Positions 51,897 through 64,000 of a stretch of 64,000 bases of DNA are shown here, piece after piece. A program made the position numbers and the translations under genes. Origin of the DNA: an uncultured Nitrospirota bacterium (lineage in GTDB: Bacteria; CG2-30-53-67); assembly GCA_947259355.1 (NCBI GenBank), contig CAMYMF010000002.1, positions 62,001 to 126,000 of the forward strand, read 5' to 3'. The stretch's first letter is position 1, and each line of letters starts with the position of its first letter. Under the pieces are notes generated by a model, which ran no database searches, was not told the DNA's origin, and worked only from the letters and a program-made list of their open reading frames with translations.

Positions 51897-52682
51897 GTGC
51901 CGTTACTTACGCTCCCCTCAGGGCATGATGTTCATTATCAGGATCAGGGCCACGGTGATGTCGTGCTGCTTCTTCACGGCTTGGCGGGGGCGTCCAACTT
52001 CTGGCGGGGGACACTGGAGGCCCTTTCGCCGAAGCATCGCTGCATTGCGCCGGACTTGCTCGGCTTCGGCGACTCCGACAAGCCCCGGGGATGCTACACC
52101 ATTGCCGAGCACGCCGAGATGGTGGTCCGGCTCATGGAAGATCTGGATCTCGGCCGTGTGCATCTCATCGCCCATTCCATGGGGGGGATGGTGGCCATCG
52201 ATTATGTGCTGCGCTTTCCCGAGCGGGTGAAAGGGCTGGTCCTCATCAATGTTCCCGTGTCCGGAGGGCGGTCTCTCCACGGGCGGGGCCGCATCGGTGC
52301 CACCGGGCTCGGTCTTCTGGCCGTGAAGGTGGGGCTTCAGATCCCGCCGGTTCTCTGGGCCCTTCGACAGCTGCCGCGATACTACTTTGTGCTCGATCCG
52401 CGTTACACGGAAGATGCAAAAAAGGCCCCCCTGCACAGCCTGAAGGGAAACGCGGATGCGCTGCGTTGCACGGATCTCTCGGCCCGGCTCCGGGAGATTG
52501 CCGTTCCGACCCTGGTCATCGGAACCGGTCACGACGGCATCGTACGGGCATCCGATTTCGCACTGGCGGCTCGGGAAATACCTGGAGCACGGCATGTGGG
52601 GATCACCGACGCTGGCCACTGCCCCACACTGGAACGGCCGAAGCAGACCCATGCCGCAATTCTTACGTTCCTTGCAGGATGA
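51897..52682 (+). CDS. Alpha/beta hydrolase
   Basis: 261-residue hydrolase of the haloperoxidase/BioH type. Oxyanion region LLLHGLAGASNFW, nucleophile Ser in LIAHSMGGMVA, acid in IGTGHDGIV and catalytic His in DAGHCPTLERP are visible. GTG start at 51897, 4 bases after the preceding stop; AGGA is very close, so coupling is likely. The substrate, probably an ester, is unknown. It is followed by gpsA after 56 bases. Confidence 0.88.
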   Translation: MPLLTLPSGHDVHYQDQGHGDVVLLLHGLAGASNFWRGTLEALSPKHRCIAPDLLGFGDSDKPRGCYTIAEHAEMVVRLMEDLDLGRVHLIAHSMGGMVAIDYVLRFPERVKGLVLINVPVSGGRSLHGRGRIGATGLGLLAVKVGLQIPPVLWALRQLPRYYFVLDPRYTEDAKKAPLHSLKGNADALRCTDLSARLREIAVPTLVIGTGHDGIVRASDFALAAREIPGARHVGITDAGHCPTLERPKQTHAAILTFLAG

Positions 52683-52741
52683 GAGGCGGTGGTGATGGAT
52701 GGGTCCCGAACGTCCAGGATGAACGAGAGGGAGGGGGCATG

Positions 52742-53782
52742 ATGGAAAGGGTTGCGGTCATTGGGGCCGGCGCGTGGGGCACGACCCTCGCGAATCTGCT
52801 GGCTAAGAAAGGGATTTCTGTAACGCTCTGGGTCTACGAGCGGGAGTTGGTGCAGAGCATCCGGCAAAGTCGCGAAAACAAAACGTACCTGCCCGGTGTC
52901 ACGCTGTCGCAGGACCTGCAGGTCAGTGCATCGCCCGAAGAGGTCACTGCCGACGCCGAAATCTTCCTCGTGGTGAGCCCCTCCCATGTTACCCGCGTCG
53001 TTGTGGAGCGATTCCGCCCCTGCATTCCGCAGACGGCGTTGGTCATCAGTGCAACCAAAGGGGTCGAAAATGAAACCCTCCTGACCATGTCGGAGGTGTT
53101 GCCGCAGGTGCTCAGGGCGGTGCCGCCGGAGCAGTTTGCATACCTCTCGGGGCCGAGTTTTGCCCGGGAGGTCTCGCAGGAACTTCCCACGGCCGTGTCG
53201 GTAGCTTCGCGCAGTCGGGAGGTGGCCGAACGGGTGCAGGCTCTCTTCACCATGCCCTACTTCCGGGTCTACACCACGCCCGATGTGGTCGGTGTTGAAC
53301 TGGGCGGTGCCGTCAAGAATGTTCTGGCCATTGCCGCCGGTCTCAGTGACGGTCTCGGTTTCGGTTACGACGCCCGGGCTGCGCTCATCACGCGGGGGTT
53401 GAGCGAGATGTCCCGGCTTGGTACCGCCATGGGGGCGCTGCCGATCACTTTCATGGGACTGGCCGGTCTGGGCGATCTGGTGCTGACCTGTACGGGTGAT
53501 CTCAGCCGGAACCGGAATGTGGGGCTCCAATTGGCCCGGGGGCGCACGCGGGACGACCTGCTGCGGAAGGAGAAAGCCGTGGCCGAAGGGATTCGGACCA
53601 CCCGGTCCGTCCATGAGCTGGCCCAACGACACGGCGTGGAGATGCCGATCACCCGACAGGTTTATCGGATTCTCTATGAAGGGCTGGCCCCCGCCGAGGC
53701 GGTGCGAGAGCTGATGAGCCGGGATCCCCGGGAGGAGCTGGAGGAGCTTGAAGCGAGGCGCCGGATGGGTTGGCGTGTATGA
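52742..53782 (+). CDS. gpsA: NAD(P)-dependent glycerol-3-phosphate dehydrogenase
   Basis: 346-residue enzyme reducing dihydroxyacetone phosphate to glycerol-3-phosphate for phospholipids. Rossmann motif VAVIGAGAWGTTLANLLA, substrate lysine in SATKGVENETLL, catalytic Lys in ELGGAVKNVLAIAAGLSDG, and GDLVLTCTGDLSRNR are all present. ATG at 52739 or 52742 (paired ATGATG), behind GAGGGAGGGGGC. Overlaps the next gene by 4 bases (ATGA). Confidence 0.96.
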   Translation: MERVAVIGAGAWGTTLANLLAKKGISVTLWVYERELVQSIRQSRENKTYLPGVTLSQDLQVSASPEEVTADAEIFLVVSPSHVTRVVVERFRPCIPQTALVISATKGVENETLLTMSEVLPQVLRAVPPEQFAYLSGPSFAREVSQELPTAVSVASRSREVAERVQALFTMPYFRVYTTPDVVGVELGGAVKNVLAIAAGLSDGLGFGYDARAALITRGLSEMSRLGTAMGALPITFMGLAGLGDLVLTCTGDLSRNRNVGLQLARGRTRDDLLRKEKAVAEGIRTTRSVHELAQRHGVEMPITRQVYRILYEGLAPAEAVRELMSRDPREELEELEARRRMGWRV

Positions 53783-59493: not shown

Positions 59494-59573
59494 CGGGGCC
59501 CCCGCATGGGGCGCGGGGTCAGCCAGACCCCTTGCCGGTGCGGCGGCAACGTCTCCTTTGGATGGGTGGTTTG

Positions 59574-61343
59574 ATGAAACGTTTTGCCCGTGATGGCTAT
59601 CCCTTCAAGATCTTTGTGCTGGTGCTTCTCTTTGCTGTGGGATACGGGCTCGTTATTTATCGCCTCTTTGTGCTGCAGGTGCGCGATCATGAGCGGCTTC
59701 GGGAGATGGCGAGACGCCAGCAGTCCCGTACGGTGAAGATTGTCCCCAGGCGGGGAACCATCTACGATCAGAAAGGGCGGGAGCTGGCCATCAGCGTCGA
59801 CACCATTTCGCTCTATGCCGTGCCGCCGCAAATCCACGACAAGCGGCGGACCGCAAAGATCCTCTCGAAGCTGACCGGTGAGAAGCAGCGAAAAATTCTG
59901 CGGGAACTTCTCAAGAAGAGGCAGTTCGTTTGGGTGGCTCGAAAACTCGACCCCAGCATTATGGACAAGCTGGCCCAGAAAGAGCTCGATGGGATCTATT
60001 CGCTCTATGAGAGCAAACGATTCTACCCGAACCGCTCCCTGGGGGCAGGATTCCTCGGTTTCGTCGGACTGGACAATCAGGGATTGGAGGGGGTGGAGTT
60101 TCAGTACGACGACGCCATTAAGGGCAAGCCCGGCTGGTTTGTGGCCGGTGTCGATGCCAAGCGTCGTCAGATCATGACACCCGAAGAAGGTTACCTGCAG
60201 CCTACGGGCGGCAACGACCTGGTACTCACAATGGACAATGTGATCCAGTACATCACCGAGGTGGAGCTCCGGCAGGCCTTCCGAGAGCATGGCGCGCGGG
60301 CCGGCATGGCCGTGATGATCCGTCCCGCCACCGGCGAGATCCTCTCCATGGCCAGCTATCCCACCTTCAACCCGAACGAATTTCAGTCGTACCGACCGCG
60401 GCTTCGCCGCAACCTCCCCATACTGGAAAACTTCGAGCCCGGTTCAACCTTCAAGCTGGTGACGCTTGCAACGGCCCTTGATCTGGGGATCGTGAAACCC
60501 CGAGATATCTTTTTCTGTGAGAATGGTGCGTATCGCTACCGCAGCACCGTCTACCACGACACCCATGAGTACGGCTGGCTCTCCGTCCGGCAGATCCTCC
60601 AGAAAAGCAGCAATATCGGCGCCATTAAGATCAGTGAACAGTTGGACCGCCAGGACTTCTACCGCTACATACAGGATTTCGGTTTCGGAGACAAGACGGG
60701 CGTGGCCCTGCCCGGCGAATCGACCGGTGTGCTCCGCTCACCCCGCAACTGGTCGGGGCTCTCCATGCCCTCGCTCTCCATGGGGCAGGAGCTGTCCGTG
60801 ACGGCGCTGCAGCTGCTCAGTGCAACGGCGGCCATTGCCAATGATGGGGTACGGATGCAGCCCTACACGGTGGCGCGCATTGTGACGCCCGACGGAAAGG
60901 TCTTGGTGGAAAACGGGCCGCGAGCTGTGAAGCAGGTCATCTTGCCGAAGACGGCGCAATATATGTTGCGCTGCATGGAATCGGTGGTCACGGAAGACGG
61001 CACGGCCCCGCAGGCGGCGGTGCCGGGTTTTCGGGTCGCAGGGAAAACCGGCACGGCCCAGAAGTATGACCGACAGCTCGGCAGCTATTCCCATAGCAAG
61101 TTCACGAGTTCCTTTGTCGGTGTGGTGCCTGCGGACAAACCGGAGATTGCGCTCATTGTCGTGTTGGATGAGCCACAGGGCAAGATCCGTTACGGGGGCA
61201 CCGTTGCCGGACCGGTCTTTCGGAGAATTGCGGAACGGACCCTACGCTACCTTCGGGTCGCACCGCCCCAAACGCCCGAGGTGGTCCTCTCTGCGTCCGA
61301 AGGGGAGGCGGTACCCCTCCAGGCCATCGGCGGGAGGAGCTGA
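59574..61343 (+). CDS. ftsI: Peptidoglycan transpeptidase FtsI (PBP3)
   Basis: 589-residue class B penicillin-binding protein crosslinking septal peptidoglycan. N-terminal membrane anchor (IFVLVLLFAVGYGLVIYRLFVL), PBP dimer domain (RRGTIYDQKGRELAIS), transpeptidase with S291-TFK, SSN in KSSNIGA and K491-TGT. No PASTA domains. ATG at 59574; two ATG codons within 14 bases upstream are alternatives. The stop TGA overlaps the murE ATG. Confidence 0.95.
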   Translation: MKRFARDGYPFKIFVLVLLFAVGYGLVIYRLFVLQVRDHERLREMARRQQSRTVKIVPRRGTIYDQKGRELAISVDTISLYAVPPQIHDKRRTAKILSKLTGEKQRKILRELLKKRQFVWVARKLDPSIMDKLAQKELDGIYSLYESKRFYPNRSLGAGFLGFVGLDNQGLEGVEFQYDDAIKGKPGWFVAGVDAKRRQIMTPEEGYLQPTGGNDLVLTMDNVIQYITEVELRQAFREHGARAGMAVMIRPATGEILSMASYPTFNPNEFQSYRPRLRRNLPILENFEPGSTFKLVTLATALDLGIVKPRDIFFCENGAYRYRSTVYHDTHEYGWLSVRQILQKSSNIGAIKISEQLDRQDFYRYIQDFGFGDKTGVALPGESTGVLRSPRNWSGLSMPSLSMGQELSVTALQLLSATAAIANDGVRMQPYTVARIVTPDGKVLVENGPRAVKQVILPKTAQYMLRCMESVVTEDGTAPQAAVPGFRVAGKTGTAQKYDRQLGSYSHSKFTSSFVGVVPADKPEIALIVVLDEPQGKIRYGGTVAGPVFRRIAERTLRYLRVAPPQTPEVVLSASEGEAVPLQAIGGRS

Positions 61344-62815
61344 TGCGGTTGGAGCAGCTCCTGCAGGTGCTACCGGATGCACAGGTTTTGGGGGATCCCG
61401 CCGGGATAGAGATACTGGACCTGGCAGATGATTCCAGAAAAGCTGCACCGGGGTGCTTGTTTGTCGCGATTCAGGGGGAACGAACAGACGGACATGACTA
61501 CATTGAAGAGGCGCTGGGGCGCGGCGCGCTGGCTGTGATCCTCGAGAAAGAACGAACAATCCCATCGGCCGTGGGCATCAAGGTGCGCGACAGCACCGAG
61601 GCCCTGGCTGCTGTGGCGGCGAAATTCTTCGACGATCCCTCGCAGCGCATGAAGGTGGTTGGCATTACGGGCACCAACGGAAAGACCACCACCTCCCTTC
61701 TCGTGCACCGCATCCTGCGGGAGGCAGGGTATCGCCCAGGGCTGATCGGTACCCTGCGCTACGAGGTCGGTCATGAGGTGACGGCGGCCCTGAACACCAC
61801 GCCCGGCTCCCTGGAGCTGCAGCGGCTCCTGCATCGGATGTGCGTTGCCGGGAACGATTCCTGTGTGATGGAGGTGTCGTCCCACGGTCTGGCCCTAGGT
61901 CGAGTACGAGGGTGTCGTTTCGACATGCGAGTCTTTATGAACTTGACTCGGGATCACCTCGATTTTCACGCCACCATGGATGCATACTTCGCTGCCAAAG
62001 AAAGCCTCTTTGAACCGTCCTTTGCCAAGGAGGGGGCCGTGTCCATTATCAATATCGACGATCCCTGGGGCCGGCGGCTGGCAGCAGGTTGCGCCGGGTC
62101 GGTGCGGACTTTCGGCCTTGGCAACGAGGCCGATTTGCAGGCCTCAGAGGTGGTGAATAGCATCGACGGGGTCTCCTTTTCCGTGGGGGACGCGGAGCAC
62201 CCTGTGCGGATCGTCTCGCCGCTGAGCGGGACCCATAATGTGGAGAACATCCTGGCAGCCCTCTCGGTGGGGTCGGTCCTGTGAGTCCCGCTGGCCGTGC
62301 AGGCACAGGCCGTGGCGGACGTGGTGTCCGTGCCGGGCCGCTTTGAAAAGATCCGGGGACCTGGTTTTTCGGTGATCGTCGACTATGCCCATACGGATGA
62401 CGCCCTACGCAACCTTCTGGAAAGCGCGCGGGAGGTCTGTCAGCAGAGGCTTATCACCGTTTTCGGATGCGGCGGCGATCGGGACCGTGGCAAGCGCCCC
62501 CTCATGGGACGTGTTGCGGCCACACTGTCCGATGTGGTCATCGTGACCTCAGACAATCCGCGCACCGAGGCACCGGACAAGATCATCGAAAATATTCTTG
62601 CGGGCCTGGACCCGTCCAGCAGAGGCGACGTCCAGGTCACCGTAGACAGGCGCGACGCCATCCGGATCGGCATTGCTCAGGCCCGGCCGGGGGACGTGGT
62701 CGTCGTGGCCGGCAAAGGACATGAGGATTACCAAATCCTCGGGGAAACGAGAATTCATTTTGACGACCGTGAAGAAGTGCGAAAGGTCCTCGGCCTGCAG
62801 CCGAGCGTGTCCTGA
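61343..62815 (+). pseudogene. murE: UDP-MurNAc-tripeptide synthetase, interrupted by in-frame TGA
   Basis: The frame encodes a full-length MurE (about 490 codons) adding meso-diaminopimelate to UDP-MurNAc-L-Ala-D-Glu. Visible: P-loop GITGTNGKTTTSLL, SSHGLALGR, LTRDHLDFH, GTHNVENILAAL, GRFEKI, and the meso-DAP-selecting DNPR motif in TSDNPRTEAPDK. One codon, TGA at 62282-62284, stops the frame inside the linker to the third domain, and the same frame continues on the other side without any shift. At this place MurE proteins have Gly (LG(V/I)P...), and GGA to TGA is a single base change. GGAGG lies 5 bases before the ATG overlapping ftsI. May be a sequencing error, an inactivated gene or a readthrough site. 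Confidence 0.85.
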
Positions 62816-62894: not shown

Positions 62895-64000
62895 TTGCTG
62901 AGCACGGCCAATGTACTGCAAGCCACCGGTGGGGTGTTGCTGACGCCGAAGTGCGAGCACGTCTTCACCGCTGTCGGGATTGATTCCCGGACTGTGGCGC
63001 GAGGTGCCCTTTTTGTGGCGCTTCGGGGTGAGCGGTTTGATGGCCACGAGTTCCTGGGTCAAGCCATCAAGAAAGGCGCCGCCGGTCTCGTGGTACGACA
63101 GGATACGCCGGCCGCTCGTCGGTTTGCCACGGGAAAGGGGACCCGCAGCATCAGTGTCATTGCCGTGGCCGACACCCTCCGGGCCCTACAGGACCTGGCC
63201 GCCTTTTATCGCAGGGGGATGGAAATTCCGGTGGTGGGGGTGACCGGGACCAACGGCAAGACCACCACCAAAGAGATGCTCCATGCCATATTGGCCGTGG
63301 GACGGCGGGCCTACCGGTCCCCGGGGAATTTGAACAACCATATCGGCGTGCCCCTCAGCCTGCTCGGCATGCCCGAAGGGTCGGAGGCAGCTGTTCTCGA
63401 ATTCGGCATGAGCGCAGCCGGGGAGATTCGCAGATTGGTCGAGATCGCCCAGCCGACCGTGGCGGTCATCACCAATGTTTCCGAGGCGCACCTGACGACG
63501 CTCAGGAGTCTCGATGCGGTGGCCCGGGCAAAGGGAGAGATCCTGGAATTCCTCCCGGAGGCGGGCTGGGCCGTCTTGAATCGGGACGATCGGCGGGTGT
63601 GGGCACTTCGTAAAAAGGTGCGCGCCCAAGTACTGAGTTTTGGGTTGAGCCCAGGGTGCGAGGTGACGGCGGGCGACATCGCGTTCGGGGAAAACGGTGC
63701 CAGCACGTTTCGCCTCTTGTCGGCGGGTCCCTCGGCGCAGGTCTGTCTGCGGCGCCCCGGTCGGCATGAAGTGCTGAACGCTTTGGCCGCCGCCGCGGCA
63801 GCACAAGCTCTCGGGGTTTCGCCGGACGACATGGTGGCGGGACTGGCCGCGTGCGAGATACCGGGGATGCGCTGGGAAATGCAGATGTTGCCGAACGGGG
63901 CTCATCTGATTAACGACGCGTACAATGCCAACCCGGCCTCCGTGAAGGCCGCCATCCGGACCGTGACGGAGCTGGGCGCAGACCGACGAAACATTGCTGT
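62895..64000 (+). CDS. murF: UDP-MurNAc-tripeptide--D-Ala-D-Ala ligase (3' end off the edge)
   Basis: The last ligase of the cytoplasmic peptidoglycan precursor pathway, attaching D-Ala-D-Ala. About 368 codons are present before the right edge. TTG start at 62895 with GGGAG 6 bases upstream. P-loop GVTGTNGKTTTKEML, GNLNNHIGVPLSLL, EFGMSAAGEIRRL, TNVSEAHL and INDAYNANPASVKAAI are visible. Continues the dcw order murE-murF. Confidence 0.95.
   Translation, partial: MLSTANVLQATGGVLLTPKCEHVFTAVGIDSRTVARGALFVALRGERFDGHEFLGQAIKKGAAGLVVRQDTPAARRFATGKGTRSISVIAVADTLRALQDLAAFYRRGMEIPVVGVTGTNGKTTTKEMLHAILAVGRRAYRSPGNLNNHIGVPLSLLGMPEGSEAAVLEFGMSAAGEIRRLVEIAQPTVAVITNVSEAHLTTLRSLDAVARAKGEILEFLPEAGWAVLNRDDRRVWALRKKVRAQVLSFGLSPGCEVTAGDIAFGENGASTFRLLSAGPSAQVCLRRPGRHEVLNALAAAAAAQALGVSPDDMVAGLAACEIPGMRWEMQMLPNGAHLINDAYNANPASVKAAIRTVTELGADRRNIA

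Follow-up and report, generated by a model that had tools for sequence, protein, structure and literature searches.

What does an in-frame TGA mean when it interrupts an essential gene whose downstream part still reads as protein? The gene is murE, encoding UDP-N-acetylmuramoyl-L-alanyl-D-glutamate--2,6-diaminopimelate ligase, which is essential for peptidoglycan in bacteria that possess it. It lies near the end of the window, the whole 64,000-nucleotide stretch of uncultured Nitrospirota DNA analysed here, in the following setting:

59532..61343, forward strand: ftsI (penicillin-binding protein / peptidoglycan transpeptidase), intact, overlapping the murE start by one base
61343..62281, forward strand: 5' part of murE, 313 codons that encode Mur ligase domain 1 and the greater part of the central domain (NF001126 positions 1-309 of 486, 313.6 bits)
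62282..62284, forward strand: in-frame TGA at residue 314 of murE (Gly in 83 of 110 homologues; GGG in G001, a genome of the same genus)
62285..62815, forward strand: remainder of murE in the same frame, with the end of the central domain, GRFEKI, DNPR and the C-terminal domain (NF001126 positions 321-482 of 486, 232.8 bits for 62297-62812; omega 0.169 versus G001)
62297..62299, forward strand: weak candidate GTG restart (-2.2 kcal/mol against the anti-Shine-Dalgarno; GCT in G001)
62896..64000, forward strand: murF, uninterrupted within the window and continuing past its end

At ATG 61343, where the frame opens, a strong Shine-Dalgarno lies upstream (GGGAGGAG, -10.3 kcal/mol for pairing with the anti-Shine-Dalgarno); the frame runs for 313 codons to the TGA at 62282-62284, and continues for 176 sense codons to a second TGA at 62813-62815. 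The in-frame stop reported in a preliminary description is borne out by this frame, as is its count of 313 codons upstream; its 177 downstream codons are 176 sense codons and the final stop. In a profile search, residues 1-310 match positions 1-309 of NF001126, and the downstream match to positions 321-482 agrees with the earlier placement there of the essential third domain with GRFEKI and DNPR. TIGR01085 (cut-off 257.3 bits) reads through the stop, covering positions 3-471 of 472 at 516 bits with one TGA inside. The gene matches a MurE ligase over its full length, including the catalytic C-terminal domain, and departs from one in its interrupted reading frame. A downstream frame that carries the rest of MurE cannot be put down to chance, so this is one gene with an interruption, as opposed to two genes that happen to adjoin. 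Both flanking genes are intact, as had been described, murF over the part inside the window.

Comparison with relatives centres on G001. Of six matching pieces in the final 20 kb of the window, five have 79-86% DNA identity to it and the sixth, of 77 bases, has 75%; over the murE gene cluster the identity is 82%. The MurE of G001 aligns with that of the window over all 490 residues, free of gaps and stops, at 83.7% identity, and has GGG (Gly) at the TGA site. The earlier remark that TGA lies one base from GGA presupposes a GGA ancestor; the GGG of the nearest relative is two bases off, which counts against a one-base error. Glycine, described as conserved here, is the commonest residue without being invariant: the MAFFT column for 110 homologous stretches (one from contig C71 of the same assembly, 29 from a profile search of 98 genomes and 80 from a wider contig scan) holds G 83, D 11, K 7, N 7, Q 1 and E 1, with no Cys. 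The contig scan, which may leave out records of the window's own genome or of one very near it, gave only relatives at 40-50% identity. A pairwise tblastn version of the count, in which a few gaps are shifted, gives Gly in 78 of 110. None of these 110 stretches has a stop inside the gene; of three apparent stops that were discarded, one (L043) falls at the match edge before the gene proper, one (L119) is the natural end, and the third (L085) has no stop codon. In the 98 genomes, 91 of which have a TIGR01085 match over the cut-off, no such match besides the window copy contains a stop.

Selection on the gene is equally strong on both sides of the TGA. Counted with a simple Nei-Gojobori script, dN/dS against G001 is 0.170 for codons 1-313 and 0.169 from codon 315 onward, within the 0.05-0.24 that ten window genes give in their main matches (a range that leaves aside two secondary matches, that of ORF 52091-53782 and that of murF to murE). 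Because these values agree with each other and with other genes, murE shows no decay: selection is not relaxed and there are no gaps relative to G001, although a very recent loss would leave no trace of this kind. Separately, the first ~200 codons of ORF 52091-53782 (window 52091-52720, forward strand) look non-coding against G001, with two stops and dN > dS; the gene there probably starts later, or another feature occupies 52091-52720.

We think it likely that this is an ordinary functional murE whose TGA is a base-call or consensus error, or else a nonsense allele, minor or very recent, that is not fixed. The TGA would most likely not be fixed in the living population, being either a wrong base or an allele picked up by the assembler, and with a sense codon in its place the cell would produce MurE at full length. 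The reading frame and the family match across the stop identify the gene; its function, and the status of the TGA as something other than a fixed functional element, are argued from the uninterrupted same-genus gene, the equal purifying selection on both sides and the standard use of UGA in this genome. An error, minor variant or recent nonsense allele is thus the most likely reading, ahead of any new reading of the code. Cooley and Wright (2024, PMC11017572) report that where a bacterial assembly shows a pseudogene with an internal stop, the cause is frequently an assembly error, dependent on platform and coverage.

The quality of the assembly bears on this reading from both directions. The assembly comprises 94 contigs and 3.1 Mb, is 89.7% complete with 2.8% contamination, and has the look of a metagenome assembly; it also seems to include foreign DNA, in contig C71, a point in favour of an artefact. 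A sample made up of the window and 20 further stretches (464 kb, about 15% of the genome) was screened for same-frame stops flanked on either side by 50 or more open codons with the best coding score, a screen blind to frameshifts and to stops near gene ends. Thirty same-frame stops were found, and a protein family crosses only two of them, murE and the following:

L189:1725-1727, contig C15, forward strand: glutaredoxin-family gene with an in-frame TGA at the first Cys of W-C-P-x-C (W-UGA-P-A-C)

None of the other 28 candidates is crossed by a family; Pfam matches are one-sided or end short in 26 and absent in two, and these 28 are taken for gene junctions or left unassigned. One (L184:18433, reverse strand, contig C10) is a same-frame TGA after a methyltransferase-like stretch, with matches ending just before it and 56 more open codons beyond, possibly a junction or a shortened gene. 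With so few other lesions, the assembly is not generally poor. That murE and a probable selenocysteine codon are the only family-crossed stops among 30 counts against an error and leaves a little room for a UGA that is real and tolerated. For a random error to strike murE alone would be rare, though the gene was chosen by a scan that sought rare events.

A fixed TGA would make a notable case, since the supply of an essential enzyme would then rest on a UGA that is programmed or tolerated: the codon would be read through with no SECIS element, or the ligase would be split near a domain hinge into two cooperating polypeptides. We regard this as unlikely. Readthrough taken by itself, in which a real and fixed TGA is decoded often enough by a near-cognate tRNA or an unseen suppressor tRNA to supply sufficient MurE, is decidedly unlikely, even though selection persists downstream of the stop and the position tolerates residues other than Gly. 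A suppressor could sit in the tenth of the genome that the bin lacks: the 41 tRNA matches, all read by ARAGORN either directly or as part of neighbouring loci, include no tRNA-Ile, tRNA-Phe or tRNA-Asn, as expected of an incomplete bin, and so leave room for one. However, the sole UCA anticodon among the 41 belongs to tRNA-Sec (contig C58, 71.1 bits), and tRNA-Trp, with a 5-bp anticodon stem and C11-G24 (pairs read by eye), lacks the known UGA-reading changes. One such change lies in the D stem. Another is a 4-bp anticodon stem (PMC13092985). The release factor RF2 is intact (prfB uninterrupted, 530 bits), and apart from the glutaredoxin no other UGA in the 464 kb is crossed by a family. The preliminary description had listed readthrough among its options; no support for it was found, and literature searches listed nothing on point about murE nonsense mutation or readthrough, or about in-frame stops in essential MurE with suppressor tRNAs.

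A second murE could instead carry the essential function, leaving the window copy as a recent pseudogene. The assembly does contain an intact copy:

Contig C71 (L009), 6,428 bases: partial dcw cluster mraW-ftsL-ftsI-murE with part of murF; murE intact

Its mraW, ftsL and ftsI are named from order, similarity and translation. However, this cluster is only 64-73% identical in DNA to that of the window, versus 82% for the same-genus genome, and its MurE belongs to another lineage, with 56% amino acid identity to window MurE (versus 84% between the window and G001) and 62% to that of G005. In a MurE tree, C71 falls inside the family group (100/100) and outside the six other family sequences, the window's included, by a fork whose 83/90 support is not firm. 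The genomes G001-G005 have one murE each over the cut-off. To judge from these comparisons, C71 is probably a contaminant that strayed into the bin from a co-occurring member of the family, one of a different lineage, and the bin would then be impure; strictly speaking, it could also be a horizontally acquired second cluster. The second murE proposed earlier is therefore present in the assembly, and as a rescue copy it gives way to the likelier contaminant. That the cell lives on the C71 gene is improbable, ranking below readthrough.

Lower again we place a MurE made in two pieces, with one polypeptide ending at residue 313 and an internal GTG starting a second that supplies the C-terminal domain. 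GRFEKI lies ~18 residues beyond the break, which would put the TGA close to the hinge that joins the central and C-terminal domains in E. coli MurE structures. The restart suggested earlier near 62297 does not hold up: this GTG, the first in-frame start codon after the TGA, has almost no Shine-Dalgarno (-2.2 kcal/mol, versus -10.3 at the murE start), and the homologous codon in G001 is GCT, a non-start codon. Later GTGs range from -3.7 to -7.4 kcal/mol, within the range of 18 window ORF starts (0.4 to -10.3); the best, GTG 62330 (residue 330), reaches -7.4 kcal/mol, a pairing energy that takes no account of spacing. A restart, for example at 62330, is thus possible on paper, but the sequences of relatives, whose murE genes over the cut-off are uninterrupted, lend it no support, and the N-terminal polypeptide would miss the end of the central domain.

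Selenocysteine at the murE UGA is scarcely credible, even in a genome equipped to insert it. Alongside tRNA-Sec the genome has SelB (403.6 bits, contig C5), as do 7 of 7 relatives tested, over the cut-off in each, with a partial copy in G004. The glutaredoxin gene on C15 served as a control. Its UGA is followed after 21 nt by a SECIS-like hairpin with a 5-base loop, AGGUA, at -8.7 kcal/mol (6 of 100 shuffles fold as well), and from its sequence it is a probable selenoprotein in which UGA encodes selenocysteine. Selenoprotein glutaredoxins are already known (PMC1088965). A hairpin can also be drawn 36 nt downstream of the murE TGA, formally within loose bacterial SECIS limits; at -15.1 kcal/mol it is stronger than any hairpin that follows the 16 natural TGA stops compared in the window (0 to -12.6 kcal/mol). 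However, 24 of 100 shuffles fold as well, G001 folds better (-19.3 kcal/mol) with GGG in place of UGA, and plain folding downstream of the TGA is unexceptional (z -0.4 to 1.1). Judged by the shuffles and by G001, the excess over the natural stops would reflect local base composition. MurE has no redox chemistry, and Cys occupies the site in none of the 110 homologues. With no Cys counterpart, no clear SECIS signal above chance and no redox site, selenocysteine in MurE was rejected.

Least probable of all is a code in which UGA means glycine, as in SR1/Gracilibacteria: glycine is the usual residue at the site, but the reading is effectively refuted by the sequence data, since TGA is a working terminator, ending 110 of the 195 genes in the 464 kb that have 300 codons or more (TAA 46, TAG 39), while RF2 is intact, no tRNA-Gly(UCA) occurs among the 41 tRNA matches of this 89.7% complete genome, and the screen of the 464 kb found no further TGA crossed by a family at a Gly position, all in keeping with the earlier judgement that such a code was unlikely.

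The murE case likely shows how a metagenome assembly can mimic recoding through a single base that is wrong or minor. Apparent recoding can be weighed by looking at the closest relative, at selection before and after the stop, at how often the codon serves as terminator, at the tRNA set and at a control gene from the same genome with a probable selenocysteine.

Compared with the MurE family as represented by NF001126 and TIGR01085, the window gene is alike in its whole-length match, in the ftsI-murE-murF order, and in possessing GKTTT, DNPR and the C-terminal domain; it differs by a single in-frame TGA at residue 314. With bacterial selenoproteins it shares an in-frame UGA and an organism that has tRNA-Sec and SelB, whereas it has no Cys counterpart, no clear SECIS signal above chance and no redox site. 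It also resembles the spurious pseudogenes described in PMC11017572: murE is likewise a conserved gene with a single internal stop in a draft assembly, with intact relatives and no decay. In that study the artefact was proved by reassembly, whereas the murE case is known here from the consensus sequence.
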